From: a virus
Strand: one strand, 5' to 3'
Virus record (IMG/VR): IMGVR_UViG_3300044620_001605
Span: 1 to 43,704 of that record
DNA: 43,704 bases
Position numbers and translations under genes: made by a program. Positions 2,541 to 29,579 of this stretch are shown here, piece after piece; positions within the stretch are counted from its first letter, which is position 1, and each line of letters begins with the position of its first letter. The notes under the pieces are model-generated. The model saw only the letters and a program-made list of their open reading frames with translations. It did no database searches and was not told the DNA's origin.

Positions 2541-3637
2541 TGCGCTTGCCCCGCAGCTCTTTTTTGTCTTAAAGCCTCTCTTTTTTGATCAAGTGTAGGA
2601 ACTTCCCTAATTTTTTTGTAATTATCATATTGTGCAGTAAATTTGGTATCTGCTAATCCACTAAATCGATTAGTAACTCTGCTTTTGTTCTCTTCCATTT
2701 TTTTGTCTGCGGCTTTTATTAAATCATCCAAGACGGCAATAACGCCAGGAGTTCCGCCCCTGAAATTTGTTAAGTAAGCATCAACGATACCAACATCTCC
2801 ACCAATTGCCCTTGTCAATAATTCCTTGTCTGCCCCTGCGAGTGCTCCAAGTTTTGCTACATCTCTGTTATAACCTGTAATCATATCAGAAATTAGCTTT
2901 GTATATTGCGCTCGTGCTGGATCTGATGGGTCTGTTGGAATACCACCGGACTGGTTAATAATGTTTTTAATTTGTTGAGCAGCAGATGTTACATCTGTAA
3001 GTCCAGAAATTGCATTGCCATAATCTGCATCGTATTCTTTCCCAACTTTTAAATCTCTCTCAAGTTCTTTTCCAGCCTGCGACGCAGATTTCACAAGTTT
3101 ATTTTGATCTCTGGCCGCAAGTCTTGCTTCTTTTGTTGCTGCAATTTGCTCTAGTTGAGCTTGTGCATACATTCTATCTTTAACAGCTTGCCGTTGTGTT
3201 TCAGTTAATTGGCCTTGAGACTTAAGCAATGCTTGCTCAAGCTCTGCCATGACTTTTTGTTTGCTCTCAGGGCGTTTATAATATTGAGCCAAATTACTTC
3301 CGGTCCATGTATCAACAAGAGCGGCAAGAGGCGAAATATCAAGTTTTGACGGACCTTTTTGAGTCTGCTGTAACCTTGTTCGAGCCTCTTCTATTTGTGC
3401 TCTTTGATTTTGAACACTCTCAAGATAGGATTTTTCTAGTTCTTGTAAAACATCATGATTTACATCAGCACGTTGATTCATCATGTTGATAGTCTTTTGT
3501 GGCGCTTGCATAGATGCTTCAGGAGCCATCATTACCTGTTGGGGCTGTGCAGCGTAACTTTGATCTACAATTAAGTCTTGAGGACTAAATTGCGGTTGAT
3601 TCATCAACATCCAAGGTTGAATTTGCTGATTTGCCAT
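2537..3637 (-). CDS. Ejection (internal virion) protein, Gln/Ala-rich
   Basis: A 366-residue protein with a Gln/Pro/Met-rich N-terminus and a long helical, coiled-coil-like stretch (about residues 60-190, rich in Gln, Glu, Lys and Arg). ATG at 3637 follows a GGGGGATAA ribosome site. Gene order (adaptor, three Ala/Gln-rich proteins of rising size) matches the ejection-protein cassette of P22-like phages. No enzymatic motif is visible. It could equally be called an internal core protein. Translation is coupled to the next gene through an ATGA overlap at 2537-2540. Confidence 0.7.
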   Translation of the reverse strand: MANQQIQPWMLMNQPQFSPQDLIVDQSYAAQPQQVMMAPEASMQAPQKTINMMNQRADVNHDVLQELEKSYLESVQNQRAQIEEARTRLQQTQKGPSKLDISPLAALVDTWTGSNLAQYYKRPESKQKVMAELEQALLKSQGQLTETQRQAVKDRMYAQAQLEQIAATKEARLAARDQNKLVKSASQAGKELERDLKVGKEYDADYGNAISGLTDVTSAAQQIKNIINQSGGIPTDPSDPARAQYTKLISDMITGYNRDVAKLGALAGADKELLTRAIGGDVGIVDAYLTNFRGGTPGVIAVLDDLIKAADKKMEENKSRVTNRFSGLADTKFTAQYDNYKKIREVPTLDQKREALRQKRAAGQAQ

Positions 3638-4013: not shown

Positions 4014-4670
4014 TTAACCAAACCAACCGCTCATAGCTTTACCCGGATTGTCAAAAAATCCGCCGCCTCCGCCGCTTTTCTTAATTGCCTCGGCGGTTGC
4101 GCCAGCACCGAGTTGTTTCATCTTCTCTTGATAATCAAGAATGTTGCGAGCATTGATTCCAGCCACATTTTGACCAACCGTCTGAGCAGCAATGCCTAAG
4201 CCCTGCATACCAAGTTGTCCTCGTTCTGCTGCTCCTTGAGCACGAATACCTTGCCCAGCCATCATGGCGCTTTCAGCACTTGCACCAGCTAATCTCTCAG
4301 CAGCACCGCTACGGAGTCCGCCGCCGCGCATTAGATTTGCTCTTGCCATCGCCGCCTGAGTGCCAGCTTGTGCTCCGGCTTGATTTAACTGCAATGCTTG
4401 CTCTGCTTGCTGACGTTGAGTAGCCATTCTCATCCACGGGCTGGATTCAAATTCTTGTTGAACAGCCGCCCCGGTTAGAGGTTGATATTCCGCAAGCTTT
4501 GGCGTTGTATCAACTGGAGGGGGATTTGGTGCCAATGGATTTTTTATTTGATTTGGCTTTGCTCCACTTGCTCTTACCCTTGCCGCTTTAACATCGGGCC
4601 GCATATTATAAGCCGCAAGAGTTTCACTTGGTCGCCTTTTGATTCCCGCTATTTCGCCATATCCAATCAT
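4014..4670 (-). CDS. Ejection (pilot) protein, Ala/Gln/Gly-rich
   Basis: A 218-residue protein whose central part (about residues 80-190) is almost entirely Ala, Gln, Gly, Met and Arg, followed by a Lys/Gly-rich C-terminus with a poly-Gly run and an aromatic end (KAMSGWFG). This composition and length, directly downstream of the head-tail adaptor, resemble P22 gp7-class pilot proteins. ATG overlaps the TGA of the adaptor gene (TGATG). The function is inferred from context and composition, not from a domain. Confidence 0.65.
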   Translation of the reverse strand: MIGYGEIAGIKRRPSETLAAYNMRPDVKAARVRASGAKPNQIKNPLAPNPPPVDTTPKLAEYQPLTGAAVQQEFESSPWMRMATQRQQAEQALQLNQAGAQAGTQAAMARANLMRGGGLRSGAAERLAGASAESAMMAGQGIRAQGAAERGQLGMQGLGIAAQTVGQNVAGINARNILDYQEKMKQLGAGATAEAIKKSGGGGGFFDNPGKAMSGWFG

Positions 4671-5371
4671 CAGTCCATTCTCCCAGTCATCTCGCTATAA
4701 AGTCTGTAATCAGGCTCTATATTGTTTTCGTTGTCAGAATACATGTCAGCTAATGTGGTCAATGTTTCTTGCTTTTCTTGCTCCACATCTTGAATGGCTT
4801 TTGCAAGATTTGGGTGCATCTCTTTTTCCATGCACCTCATTTTAATATGAGCAATGACGTAATTAATGGCTTCTGGAATATCGCAAATCGAGGCGTCATT
4901 TATTAGCGCATTTGCATTGCGAATGTACCAAATCTGTAAATATGATCCGGCCTCTGTTGGCGTTGGAGTGATAAGTATTTCGGGCGCGCCGGGTGTGCTG
5001 TTGACTACAAAATAACCATACTGCTGCGTGCCTGAGAAATTGGCCTTTTCTGTCTCATAAATACCAAACTTGTGCCAATCTTTTAATCGCTCTAACTTCC
5101 AAACTTGCGCCCCGTTTCGGTAGATTATTTGCCTTATCTTTAAAGCATAGATGTTGTCTGGAATGGCATAAAGTTCCTCGCCCGGAATTAAAGTCATGGT
5201 TCCACGAGTGACAAAATAATCTTCGTAAAGCGTGTGAATTGTTCTCTCAACCGTATCGACAGCCTCATTTGCATAGCCTAACATTTCATCGGGAGTGACA
5301 AATGTTTCGCCTTCCATGTCCAAATCACGCAGGACTTTGCTTTTTATTTCACCATAAGTCCAAAATTTCAT
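4670..5371 (-). CDS. Head-tail adaptor (P22 gp4 / T7 gp11 type)
   Basis: A 233-residue protein opening with a helical segment (MKFWTYGEIKSKVLRDLDME), then a family-like stretch around 'TPDEMLGYANEAVDTVERTI', an aromatic beta-rich middle (NIYALKIRQIIYRNG; LQIWYIRNANAL) and a C-terminal helix around 'IPEAINYVIAHIKMRCMEKE'. This helix-beta-helix arrangement and length are those of podovirus adaptor (connector) proteins that dock under the portal. It is flanked by the tail hub and ejection genes as expected. ATG overlaps the upstream TGA. The assignment comes from recognising the pattern and the context; a structure comparison would be needed to fix it. Confidence 0.7.
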   Translation of the reverse strand: MKFWTYGEIKSKVLRDLDMEGETFVTPDEMLGYANEAVDTVERTIHTLYEDYFVTRGTMTLIPGEELYAIPDNIYALKIRQIIYRNGAQVWKLERLKDWHKFGIYETEKANFSGTQQYGYFVVNSTPGAPEILITPTPTEAGSYLQIWYIRNANALINDASICDIPEAINYVIAHIKMRCMEKEMHPNLAKAIQDVEQEKQETLTTLADMYSDNENNIEPDYRLYSEMTGRMD

Positions 5372-21704: not shown

Positions 21705-21733
21705 TTTATCTTGAGAATGATTCTCATTATCAA
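21705..21733 (-). promoter_or_regulatory. Predicted late promoter overlapped by a Fur-like box
   Basis: On the minus strand TTGATA (21733-21728), 17 bp, then GATAAA (21710-21705), pointing at terS 155 bp away. The 17-bp spacer lies entirely inside the Fur-box-like repeat unit 1. The -35 matches consensus at 5 of 6 positions and the -10 at 4 of 6. A repressor on the box would block polymerase. Confidence 0.45.
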
Positions 21734-21756
21734 TTGAGAATGATTCTCATTATCAT
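21711..21756. promoter_or_regulatory. Tandem Fur-box-like repeats (2 x 23 bp)
   Basis: Two head-to-tail 23-bp units (21711-21733, 21734-21756) that differ only in the last base. On the minus strand each contains GATAATGAGAATCATTCTC, which matches the enterobacterial Fur consensus GATAATGATAATCATTATC at 17 of 19 positions. Each unit also contains the perfect palindrome GAGAATGATTCTC. Confidence 0.6.
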
Positions 21757-22009
21757 TTCAACTAATTGAAATCATTAAACAATATCAATACCCTCTATTA
21801 ATCGCTAATAGCAATTCTGGCGCTCGCAATCGGAATTCCAATATCTCCCTATACCACGCCGATCGGACCGCAAACAAGGCCGCTCCAGACGCTTTAAACA
21901 CCATCCAAAAACACCAATTAATACACCTGCAAAATAAAGTTCTTATATAACTATCTGATATCACTAAACTTAGCCGTTCAAAAAACATATGTTAATTGAA
22001 CAAGAGAAT

Positions 22010-22165: not shown

Positions 22166-22193
22166 TTGACACGTTTTTGACAAATTGTATAAT
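22166..22193 (+). promoter_or_regulatory. Consensus sigma-70-type promoter, plus strand
   Basis: TTGACA (22166-22171), 16-bp spacer, TATAAT (22188-22193): both hexamers are perfect. The expected transcript start is near 22200. No plus-strand gene follows, so it would make a non-coding or tiny-peptide RNA. Confidence 0.7.
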
Positions 22194-22351: not shown

Positions 22352-22374
22352 AAAAAAACCACCTTCCTGGTGGT
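22352..22374 (-). terminator. Rho-independent terminator of the amidoligase operon
   Basis: On the minus strand ACCACC-AGGAA-GGTGGT is followed by seven T. It lies 27 bp after the last gene of the 22401-24811 operon. Confidence 0.85.
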
Positions 22375-22400: not shown

Positions 22401-22661
22401 TTATTCTTTGATCCCATGAAAGTCTAAAGCTTTCTTGCTTATTCTGTTAGCATCAAAATAGACAAGCTTCTTAAGCATGTCCTCATCAGTAAAGATATCA
22501 TGCAAAAAATCGACTTCGATACTAGCGACAAACAGCTCTCCTGTCTGTTTTTCATAGAGCGAATAAAAATGTGATGCTTTCACGTTTACCTTTTCAATCA
22601 ATTTTGCATTGTTTGTGTCGTATATGCGTTTATTCATAATTATTGATTTAAGCTTCTTCAT
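22401..22661 (-). CDS. Hypothetical protein, last gene of the amidoligase operon
   Basis: An 86-residue soluble protein. ATG 22661 overlaps the TGA of the preceding zinc-ribbon gene (ATGA). A second possible start is MNKRIYDTNNAKLI at residue 9. The stretch IYDTNNAKLIEKV resembles the opening of small phage/plasmid proteins with a YDT(E/N)xAxLI motif, of unknown role. The C-terminal part is charged helical (DIFTDEDMLKKLVYFDANRI). It is followed by a clean terminator. Confidence 0.7.
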   Translation of the reverse strand: MKKLKSIIMNKRIYDTNNAKLIEKVNVKASHFYSLYEKQTGELFVASIEVDFLHDIFTDEDMLKKLVYFDANRISKKALDFHGIKE

Positions 22662-22789
22662 GTTTTTTTCCTCTTTTGCTTCAAAAAATGGTTACACTTT
22701 TGACAAACTAAACAAGTCACTCTATTGATTTTCACCCAAGCGCCATTGTCATTCTTTGGCAGGTCACAACGCATGCAACGATACTTCAT
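22658..22789 (-). CDS. 43-residue zinc-ribbon-like protein
   Basis: A small ORF, MKYRCMRCDLPKNDNG at the start. Cysteines at 5, 8, 26, 29 and 32 give CxxC...CxxCxxC spacing suited to binding one zinc. The tail is strongly basic (LKQKRKKT), suggesting nucleic-acid contact. It is coupled to both neighbours by 4-base ATGA overlaps, which is good evidence that it is translated. Confidence 0.7.
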   Translation of the reverse strand: MKYRCMRCDLPKNDNGAWVKINRVTCLVCQKCNHFLKQKRKKT

Positions 22790-23085
22790 AAATAAACTCC
22801 CATGATACATTCTCTCAGCGTTCTCATTTCATCGTTCCAAGATTGTCCACAATTATACTCGACAGAATCACTATTCAAAATTAGTCGCTGATATATGCCA
22901 TGATTAGTAAAAAGCGATAGCGGCAGCGATAGTCGCCTTCTCAATTTCTCTTTTGTCTCTGATCTACATCCCTTGCCGATCAGAGCCACAATTGACTCTA
23001 TTTCTTTTTCTGACAATCGATCTTTTTTTGACGTTAATTTTTTAGCTTCCCAAATTAAATTGCTCAAACTAATTTCAGTATTCAT
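22786..23085 (-). CDS. Hypothetical 99-residue protein
   Basis: A helical, charged N-terminal half (NLIWEAKKLTSKKDRLSEKE) and a C-terminal half with SLFTNHGIYQRLIL and NCGQSWNDEMRTLRECI. No signal or membrane segment. ATG overlaps the TGA of the upstream membrane peptide gene and its own TGA overlaps the next ATG. Unknown family; co-transcribed with the amidoligase and amidotransferase. Confidence 0.65.
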   Translation of the reverse strand: MNTEISLSNLIWEAKKLTSKKDRLSEKEIESIVALIGKGCRSETKEKLRRRLSLPLSLFTNHGIYQRLILNSDSVEYNCGQSWNDEMRTLRECIMGVYL

Positions 23086-23198
23086 TCAATCCCATCCTCC
23101 GAACTATCATTTAATTTGTCGTGCATCATTGCCATGCCAGCGACAACAATGATCCCGAGAAACGGTATTAAAAACATATAGCCAAGTATCGTGTCCAT
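23082..23198 (-). CDS. 38-residue single-span membrane peptide
   Basis: A tiny ORF, MDTILGYMFLIPFLGIIVVA then a short charged tail (MHDKLNDSSEDGIE). One transmembrane helix spans about residues 4-24. GGGAGAATA precedes the ATG and the stop overlaps the next start (ATGA). It sits right after the amidotransferase, so a membrane anchor or helper for that pair is possible. Confidence 0.65.
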   Translation of the reverse strand: MDTILGYMFLIPFLGIIVVAGMAMMHDKLNDSSEDGIE

Positions 23199-23199
23199 A

Positions 23200-23886
23200 T
23201 TATTCTCCCATTGCAAATTTTGGCTTAGTCCAAGTATCAAAATCATCCAACGATGATGTATATGTATCCCAAGATGGTACTATATATGATTTCTCCCATG
23301 CTATTTGATTAGTATTCTCGCAATCAAAATCATGCGACTCAAAATATTGTTGACTGACGGGCATTGTTATATTGTCGAATTCATTTGTGGAGTAGTTGCC
23401 ATTGCCGTCAGTAAACAATGTTCCCGTCATTGAACGACTAACAACAAAGAATGCTTTGTCCAAGTCAACTAAAAACACATTGGCAAAGGGTTCATTCTCT
23501 AAACGGTCAAGAGTCTCATCGAGGCCGTAAGTATCGAGCCAATACTTAATTGCCATGGAATCAACGTCAAACTTGTCGGCAATTTTAGAACGGATCGATC
23601 CGTTATGGAATACATATGTGCTACCTGAATTCCAGCCATGACAATTCTGCAAAGCAGACTTGCCTTGAGTCGCATATCTCGTGTGAATAAAGACACGATT
23701 ATAATCCATTAGCTCGATCATATTAGTGATTGCTTCAGAATCTAATGAAGTCATAAATAGAGGTTTTCCATTTCCTAAAATCATAAGCATTGCAAAGCCG
23801 TCATTATTTGATATCGAATCGGACTGAATTCTTGATACTAGCGATTGTTTGTTGACCGATGAATCGGCAGTTATAATTGTACACAT
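23200..23886 (-). CDS. Stand-alone class II glutamine amidotransferase
   Basis: A 228-residue Ntn-hydrolase of the class II GATase type, which hydrolyses glutamine to release ammonia. Catalytic Cys2 follows Met1 (MCTIITADSS), as required for an N-terminal nucleophile. Other signatures are in order: HTRYATQG (residues 68-75, the Arg that holds glutamine), FHNGSI (93-98, oxyanion Asn-Gly) and DVDSMAI (107-113, the Asp that holds the substrate amino group). The length equals a lone GATase domain; no synthase domain is attached. AGGAGA lies six bases before the ATG. It follows an amidoligase-like gene, so ammonia is probably passed to that enzyme. Confidence 0.85.
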   Translation of the reverse strand: MCTIITADSSVNKQSLVSRIQSDSISNNDGFAMLMILGNGKPLFMTSLDSEAITNMIELMDYNRVFIHTRYATQGKSALQNCHGWNSGSTYVFHNGSIRSKIADKFDVDSMAIKYWLDTYGLDETLDRLENEPFANVFLVDLDKAFFVVSRSMTGTLFTDGNGNYSTNEFDNITMPVSQQYFESHDFDCENTNQIAWEKSYIVPSWDTYTSSLDDFDTWTKPKFAMGE

Positions 23887-23902
23887 GATATTTCTCCTAT
23901 GG

Positions 23903-24811
23903 TTATGCGCTATGACGTTTGTTATTAATTAGTCTCATTTGTCTAAGTCTCTTAGAAACAGGCATCAAATAGGAAAGGCACTCGTTCAACAATTCAGTAA
24001 TGTCGCCTTCATATGTATCGGTCATAAGGGGTTTACCGAGCTTAGTCACTTCATAAGCATAAGCCATGGCCTCAATTGCGATATTCAGACATGTGATACC
24101 CTCTGACTCGTTTTGAACATTGCCAAAGCATCTAAATTCCCAAGTATTAAGACTGTGCGCGTTGACAAAAGAATACTTGTTTCTGCTTGAAGTGAGACCT
24201 TTGATATATTGATTTTGAGGAGCTGATTTGAACCGCTTTTGAACTGATTTTGGAAGTCTCGGTATTGATTCCACTAAATATTCAACTAGTGCTAGTTGAA
24301 AGCGTTCGCCGTAGCTATGATTTACTCCGGGAATACTTAAATGGATATGAAATGAACATTTCTCATCAATTTTGTGATTTAATTTAAATGTATCTTTAAG
24401 AGCCGAGACAAAATCAATGTACTTCAATCCACCAATGGTACGAATCTCGACTCCCGATACGCTTCCGTCCTCTCCTACTTCGATATTTTCATTATCAATT
24501 TTGTCTGCAATACTTTCATGCGTTGACATCTGGTAATCAGAATAATCAAATGATAACTCAATATTTTCTCTTATATTGTCTCTAATTGTATCTATTGTTG
24601 ACTCACTTAAATGATTTTCAATCCAACGAAGATTAAAATTAATAGCAAGTGCGGATGATACTTCGTTAGAAATTTCCTCATCTGCTGCGTCATAATCAGT
24701 TTCGGTTTCATCCCCCTCAGTTTTTTGCGTCTCAAGCTCAAACCCGCATCTAATTATTGCTCGTCTTTTTATTGCGTTTGCTTCTAAAAATTCCTTAATG
24801 GCCGTATTCAT
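23903..24811 (-). CDS. Amidoligase-family enzyme (glutamine-synthetase-like fold)
   Basis: A 302-residue protein resembling the phage/bacterial 'putative amidoligase' family, ATP-dependent COOH-NH2 ligases related to GCS/glutamine synthetase. Visible family landmarks: CGFELETQ (22-29; the E-x-E metal pair), VEIRTIGG (121-128), CSFHIHLSI (152-160) and TWEFRCFGNVQNESEGI (223-239; the EFR core). Start chosen at ATG 24811 with GGAG eight bases upstream; a longer frame to 24880 has its GGGGG only two bases from the ATG. It is the first gene of an operon with a glutamine amidotransferase. Substrate unknown. Confidence 0.75.
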   Translation of the reverse strand: MNTAIKEFLEANAIKRRAIIRCGFELETQKTEGDETETDYDAADEEISNEVSSALAINFNLRWIENHLSESTIDTIRDNIRENIELSFDYSDYQMSTHESIADKIDNENIEVGEDGSVSGVEIRTIGGLKYIDFVSALKDTFKLNHKIDEKCSFHIHLSIPGVNHSYGERFQLALVEYLVESIPRLPKSVQKRFKSAPQNQYIKGLTSSRNKYSFVNAHSLNTWEFRCFGNVQNESEGITCLNIAIEAMAYAYEVTKLGKPLMTDTYEGDITELLNECLSYLMPVSKRLRQMRLINNKRHSA

Positions 24812-29084: not shown

Positions 29085-29540
29085 TCAAGCCGAAAAAATG
29101 ATCGACCAAAGCGATAATAATCCTTGCTCTTTTGCAATTGTCGCAGCTTTTGAAATCTTTATGCCGCCCGTAATTTGAACGTGAGCTTTTTCAAAAGATA
29201 ATATTTCAAAGCCATGCTTTTTAAAAATTGCATGAACCTTGTCCCACGGATCATCTTTATTCCATTGCCACTTACCGCCCCATTTAAAGCACAAATCACA
29301 AGCAATGCCGTACTGATGATAAGACTGCCCGCCGCGTGCTTTTGTGACTATTTTTCCTTCGCGGGTGCGCCCTTGCGCATAAAGCCAGTCTTGCCGATCT
29401 TCGCTGCGAAACCCCTCGAACATTTCAATTTCAAGATGCTGCGCATGACATTCATCAAGTGCAATTTGCAATCTCTTTGCAAAAAATGGCGCTAATAAAG
29501 TTTTATCGCGATTTATTTGTTGGACATCCTGCTTGTACAT
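29085..29540 (-). CDS. Endolysin, M15-type peptidase (L-alanyl-D-glutamate / DD-carboxypeptidase-like)
   Basis: A 151-residue zinc peptidase that cleaves peptidoglycan peptides. ATG 29540 is chosen because GGTGAG lies seven bases upstream; a TTG at 29558 would add six residues. M15 landmarks: GFRSEDRQDWLYAQGRT (43-59), SYHQYGIACD (73-82, zinc His75 and Asp82) and AHVQ (119-122, third ligand His120). The C-terminus (AKEQGLLSLWSIIFSA) is amphipathic/hydrophobic and could help cross or touch the membrane. It lies far from the holin candidate, between replication and early operons on the minus strand. No signal peptide. Confidence 0.85.
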   Translation of the reverse strand: MYKQDVQQINRDKTLLAPFFAKRLQIALDECHAQHLEIEMFEGFRSEDRQDWLYAQGRTREGKIVTKARGGQSYHQYGIACDLCFKWGGKWQWNKDDPWDKVHAIFKKHGFEILSFEKAHVQITGGIKISKAATIAKEQGLLSLWSIIFSA

Positions 29541-29548
29541 GATATTAC
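29521..29548 (+). promoter_or_regulatory. Predicted early plus-strand promoter
   Basis: TGGACA (29521-29526), 16 bp, TATTAC (29543-29548), 31 bp before the first early gene. It overlaps the start of the divergent endolysin gene, so the two may be mutually exclusive. Confidence 0.45.
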
Positions 29549-29579
29549 TCACCGCCAAATTTCTTGAAAGGAAAAATCT

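Follow-up and report, generated by a model that had tools for sequence, protein, structure and literature searches.

A predicted, diverged amidoligase and stand-alone class II glutamine amidotransferase encoded side by side in an uncultured phage

A minus-strand gene series and its small downstream genes

The window analysed here, the whole of IMG/VR record IMGVR_UViG_3300044620_001605 (43,704 bases), derives from an uncultured phage and encodes a terminase, a portal protein, a DnaB-type helicase and a RecT-type protein. The large terminase found no match among 50,697 sequenced phages (tblastn); the nearest relatives of the phage are metagenomic contigs, with terminases that are 73-81% identical. 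As listed in Table 1, six genes form a tight minus-strand series, with a 16-nt gap, a 1-nt gap and three 4-nt ATGA overlaps between them. A first-pass annotation, made from the letters alone, had proposed that the first two genes encode an amidoligase of the GS/GCS-type fold and a free-standing class II amidotransferase within one transcription unit. Both reading frames and their motifs are read directly in the DNA, and the predicted folds (see below) and the gene packing agree with that proposal. The amidoligase start was assigned to the Met at 24811, rather than to the longer frame from 24880, because two homologues (contigs L003 and L005) align from that Met.

Table 1. Features of the operon, in order of transcription
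Feature	Position	Strand	Basis or remark
Amidoligase-like enzyme, 302 aa	23903-24811	-	Predicted GS/COOH-NH2-ligase fold, motifs, profiles
Stand-alone class II (Ntn) glutamine amidotransferase, 228 aa	23200-23886	-	Predicted fold, motifs, profiles
Predicted membrane peptide ORF, 38 aa	23082-23198	-	Co-directional, 1 nt past the amidotransferase stop
99-aa ORF	22786-23085	-	4-nt overlap with preceding gene
Zinc-ribbon-like protein, 43 aa	22658-22789	-	4-nt overlap with preceding gene
86-aa ORF	22401-22661	-	4-nt overlap with preceding gene
Hairpin ACCACC-AGGAA-GGTGGT, then T run on minus strand	22358-22374	-	Likely operon terminator; listed by the hairpin scan on the plus strand only

The four small genes had also been put forward as possible parts of the enzyme system. 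Their tight same-strand packing, the three overlaps and the common downstream hairpin would suit a six-gene system in which all four small proteins work with the two enzymes, and a zinc ribbon indeed follows the pair in L003 and L005. However, these are the two closest relatives, and the zinc-ribbon gene is the sole small gene that recurs with the pair; in the distant pair-bearing contigs none of the four lies beside it. For the membrane peptide and the 86-aa protein, the relatives checked (pair-bearing ones included) yielded no homologue, which makes the membership of the former doubtful. The 99-aa protein has a homologue (50%) in L047, a contig that lacks the pair. We consider a six-gene system very unlikely: the small genes lie mostly outside the enzyme system and may simply share a transcript with the pair, ending at the 22374-22358 hairpin.

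Motifs, predicted folds and profiles of the two enzymes

Counting from the Met at 24811, the amidoligase carries the motifs GFELET (residues 23-28), DGSVSGVEIRT (115-125), CSFHIH (152-157), KYSF (212-215) and TWEFR (223-227), the conserved patterns being GFELET, DGSxxGxExRT, CSFHIH, KYxF and TWEFR. The nine proteins compared share E25, E27, D115, E122, H155, H157, E225 and R227 without exception, and the motif order of the superfamily (GxExE, D-x-S, E, H-x-H, E-x-R) is preserved. The amidotransferase has Cys2, HTRYATQG (68-75), HNG (94-96) and VDS (108-110), so that a Cys directly after the Met, HTR-AT, HNG and the glutamine-binding Asp are all in place; C2, R70, T73, N95-G96 and D109 are invariant in seven proteins. 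The ordered motif sets turned up in 0 of 200,000 shuffles of each protein, a result that merely bounds chance, as the patterns were written after the proteins had been seen.

AlphaFold models of both enzymes were built from the sequences of the window and its relatives only. That of the amidoligase (pLDDT 82, pTM 0.72) matched glutamine synthetases in the PDB (Foldseek, E 8e-4, prob 0.99) and dozens of phage models named "Amidoligase enzyme" in BFVD (E down to 1.5e-7), which, as originally suggested, places the protein inside, not outside, the GCS/GS fold. Global TM-scores were low (about 0.3-0.44, TMq); the fold call therefore rests on the Foldseek E-values, the motifs and the profiles, and the claim made here is one of membership in the superfamily, not in the Pfam family Amidoligase_2 (PF12224).

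Direct comparison of the amidoligase sequence with Pfam, PHROG and the PDB gave nothing usable. A Pfam match to PPP5 (E 0.008) was under its cut-off and biologically implausible, and was rejected. PF12224 (cut-off 22 bits) matched neither the window amidoligase nor anything in the whole contigs of six relatives, and single-sequence hhalign of the window amidoligase against the amidoligase and the COOH-NH2 ligase of phage TC6 was not significant. A profile of 11 phage amidoligases (A5) was needed to make the link: our amidoligase alignment (A3) scored 56.8 against it in hhalign, compared with a maximum of 26.1 for 200 column-shuffled versions of A5, and the profile alignment superposes DGS, E, HxH and ExR. 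The gap to PF12224 is bridged by two tandem amidoligase paralogues in contig L033, which score 17.2 and 13.7 bits, just below the cut-off, and both of which A3 matches strongly (E 8.5e-29 for one of them). The window amidoligase is a diverged sister of PF12224, not a member, and is predicted from model and sequence to belong to the amidoligase/COOH-NH2 ligase superfamily, with a GS/GCS-type fold.

The amidotransferase model matched GlmS, PurF and EgtC with E-values of 1e-7 to 1e-6 (prob 1.00), and the best size-matched structure was EgtC (TM 0.60 in both directions). The protein aligns with the TC6 amidotransferase (hhalign, E 3.5e-8) and with PHROG 4736 (E 2.6e-8). It stays below the Pfam cut-offs for GATase_4 (14.0 against 23 bits) and GATase_6 (12.9 against 27 bits), and its L003 homologue is likewise sub-threshold in Pfam (21.2 against 27 bits). 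Both proteins, for which profile searches had been recommended, are too diverged for the Pfam cut-offs, and it is folds, motifs and profile-profile comparison that place them. About 35 residues at the C-terminus are predicted to be disordered, and the 228-aa protein has no synthase domain, in line with the earlier reading. Model and motifs together indicate that 23200-23886 is a free-standing class II (Ntn) glutamine amidotransferase.

Linkage of the pair and its genomic setting

The two genes are adjacent, in the same order (amidoligase first), in all eight viral contigs in which they were found: the window, L003, L005, L001, L002, L013, L007 and L033. Searches started from either gene converged on this same set, and none of the viral contigs recovered has just one of the two. 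The spacing between them varies from -1 to 27 nt. The L007 amidotransferase is split between the two ends of its contig: the gene runs off the end and resumes at the start, as it would in a genome that is circular or terminally redundant. Across six phages, the pairwise identities of one protein correlate with those of the other (r = 0.92), and both reading frames are under purifying selection relative to L003 and L005, with dN about 0.35-0.41 and dS saturated.

In the window, L003 and L005 the pair sits in the interval that separates the helicase gene from the small terminase gene. Five other relatives (L041, L049, L038, L040 and L047), whose contigs span the corresponding region upstream of the small terminase gene, have other genes there; whole-contig searches of L041, L049, L038 and L047 found neither enzyme gene. 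Within this phage lineage the pair is accessory, the checked relatives having both genes or neither. The two genes are strictly linked and are gained or lost jointly; homologous phages carrying them apart, which would have spoken against the original proposal, were not encountered. The 50,697 phage records gave no match to the window amidoligase and only weak matches to the amidotransferase (tblastn). Neither protein had a relative in two scans of 84,980 prokaryote genomes, which left the pair without a host or prophage context.

In relatives without the pair, the helicase-terminase interval houses different accessory genes and looks like a cargo site. In L041 they include a calcineurin-like phosphoesterase-like ORF, judged by reading (2821-3621, minus strand), and a 231-aa protein of no assigned function (4563-5258). 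In the 187-kb viral contig L033 (4136-7871), two tandem amidoligases, 28% identical to each other, immediately precede a 399-aa amidotransferase; this duplication of the ligase suggests either a heteromer or two ligation steps in succession.

Several candidate sites lie near the operon. Two tandem 23-bp copies of TTGAGAATGATTCTCATTATCA(A/T), at 21711-21756 upstream of the small terminase gene, each differ from the Fur-box consensus GATAATGATAATCATTATC by 2 mismatches on the minus strand (chance expectation 0.01); they were not found in L003 or L005. At 21976-22001 there is a 26-bp palindrome, GTTCAAAAAACATATGTTAATTGAAC. Since this site recurs with 0-2 mismatches upstream of the small terminase gene in nine related contigs, with or without the pair, it is possibly a conserved regulatory or packaging site of the phage lineage. 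No Rfam or tRNA match was obtained in the window. A perfect sigma-70 consensus (TTGACA-16-TATAAT) at 22166-22193 on the plus strand is directed at the operon's terminator hairpin and could give rise to a short plus-strand transcript of about 180 nt.

Relation to known systems and proposed role

In many phages the genes for an amidoligase and a class II amidotransferase share a cluster with those for a COOH-NH2 ligase and an ATP-grasp ligase, frequently joined by a gamma-glutamyl cyclotransferase; a single amidoligase used as query matches 335 phage records. In phiEco32, LUZ24, tf, PA11/TC6, RIO-1, PSA-HP1 and CW02 the cluster is referred to as a "peptidoglycan modification cassette" (Iyer 2009 and Hardies 2013, as cited in PMC5498523 and PMC10580990); this putative function has been proposed to prevent superinfection (PMC5498523, PMC10580990, PMC11945000, PMC3890496). 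The phiEco32/LUZ24-type cassettes share with the window a co-directional, phage-borne cluster that includes a PF12224-type amidoligase and a class II amidotransferase. They differ in their extra enzymes (the COOH-NH2 ligase being PF14395) and in the size of the amidotransferase, 437-667 aa as against 228 aa. PF14395 had no match in the window and six pair-bearing contigs (TC6, the positive control, was found), and an ATP-grasp profile (A6) had none in the eight pair-bearing contigs (control SU7, 3.5e-63). A cyclotransferase profile (A7) matched its control, C75C1, and nothing in seven of the eight contigs; in L033 it found a cyclotransferase about 100 kb from the pair. Several of these contigs are fragments, so that the absences are firmest near the pair. 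The cyclotransferase is not universal in the known cassettes either, none being found in TC6 or Klyazma.

As none of the three extra enzymes was found in the vicinity of the pair, what the window carries is, judging from sequence, a diverged version of the cassette with only two genes, the two-enzyme core lacking its customary partners. Among sequenced phages, Arthrobacter phage Wheelbite comes closest with a similarly simple arrangement (genes 92-94, encoding a cyclotransferase, an amidoligase and an amidotransferase). There, too, a stand-alone amidotransferase directly follows the amidoligase and partners are few, but a cyclotransferase is present and the amidotransferase passes the Pfam cut-off, whereas that of the window does not. 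Because phage cassettes with both enzymes had already been published, the novelty of the locus is lower than the first-pass annotation implied; the pair belongs to a known, ordinary class of phage enzyme pairs, here in a form that is new, diverged and unusually small.

Our leading interpretation, held tentatively and at somewhat less than even confidence, is that the pair carries out glutamine-dependent amide formation, with a host envelope peptide as the likeliest target. The amidoligase would use ATP/Mg in its GS-type active site to turn a carboxylate into an acyl phosphate, while the N-terminal Cys of the amidotransferase would free ammonia from glutamine; the two enzymes would act together, perhaps as a physical complex, and the ammonia would attack the acyl phosphate. 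By analogy, the target would be a cell-envelope peptide carboxylate (the stem-peptide Glu or diaminopimelate), and the altered envelope of the infected cell might, for instance, protect it from superinfection or help to tune lysis. Bacterial parallels for amidation of envelope carboxylates are provided by MurT/GatD and AsnB/LtsA. MurT/GatD, which amidates the peptidoglycan Glu and is an established functional parallel (PMC3267633), resembles the proposed pair in performing glutamine-dependent amidation with two proteins, but its folds (Mur ligase and class I amidotransferase) are unrelated.

Amidation agrees with the folds and catalytic residues, the A3-A5 profile link, the linkage in eight of eight contigs, the joint absence in other phage relatives and the similar divergence of the two proteins. 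By analogy, the recurrence of both enzyme types in putative peptidoglycan-modification cassettes also points to it. On the other hand, GS-type ligases can use free ammonia and do not strictly require an amidotransferase partner, and these two folds in combination would also suit gamma-glutamyl ligation and hydrolysis. In the latter case the amidoligase would couple an amine to glutamate or some other amino acid. The Ntn protein would not donate ammonia but would later take off the gamma-glutamyl group or act as a gamma-glutamyl hydrolase. Mycobacterial EgtA, one of the GCS-type ligases, and EgtC set the precedent, combining such a ligase with a stand-alone partner of the class II amidotransferase fold (~227 aa). 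Other ergothioneine genes are not seen in the window. EgtC, the best size-matched structural match of our protein, is a gamma-glutamyl hydrolase, and the same two folds work together in ergothioneine synthesis, where EgtA supplies gamma-glutamylcysteine and EgtC then strips off the glutamyl part (PMC10805701). The cyclotransferase of the larger phage cassettes likewise acts on gamma-glutamyl compounds. Yet that enzyme was not found in seven of the eight pair-bearing contigs, several of them fragments, and ammonia donors of the GlmS and PurF type match the amidotransferase equally well. The observed residues fit either activity and do not separate the two; we rate this ligase-hydrolase alternative as the main rival, somewhat less likely than amidation.

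Two further roles appear less probable. GS-fold PafA is a protein ligase, and the amidoligase might by similar chemistry place an amino acid or peptide on host proteins, the amidotransferase being supplier or editor; R2K ATP-grasp phage peptide ligases, of another fold, have been proposed to modify host proteins (PMC4431377). An amidotransferase partner would be unusual for protein tagging, however, and no tag-like protein or dedicated target gene lies beside the pair in relatives, where only the zinc ribbon recurs, in close relatives alone. Tagging is in our judgement improbable. The pair might also build an amide on a modified nucleobase, since some phage pathways of DNA modification contain class II amidotransferase domains, for example Gat-QueC for archaeosine. 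Among the window proteins scanned there is a D12-type adenine methyltransferase, but thymidylate-hydroxymethylase, pyrophosphorylase, QueC/D/E, FolE and DpdA are all lacking; the remaining ORFs were judged by reading only. With these pathway genes missing among the proteins scanned, a part in DNA modification seems extremely unlikely.

Returning to amidation, a broader version of the idea can be put forward: a minimal, self-sufficient two-protein phage system, too diverged for current family models, would amidate (or gamma-glutamylate) a host envelope component in the course of infection. The larger phiEco32/LUZ24-type cassettes would have elaborated on this core, and the zinc ribbon would be its adaptor in one lineage. 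We offer this as conjecture and think it unlikely in full. Amidoligase/amidotransferase cassettes occur in hundreds of sequenced phages and their substrate is proposed, not shown, in the literature searched; no experiment on any phage amidoligase was found among the open-licence papers covered. Reconstitution is simplest for a two-enzyme version whose genes always occur together and come and go as one, and such a version could make the substrate question directly testable. If its product is a changed envelope peptide, the pair would represent a phage route to altering the host cell wall by amidation.

Elsewhere in the window, the minus strand at 29085-29558 encodes a VanY/M15-type peptidase (Pfam VanY, E 1.3e-10), possibly the phage lysis enzyme. 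Speculatively, if this peptidase cleaves L-Ala-D-Glu, amidation of the adjacent glutamate could alter its substrate.
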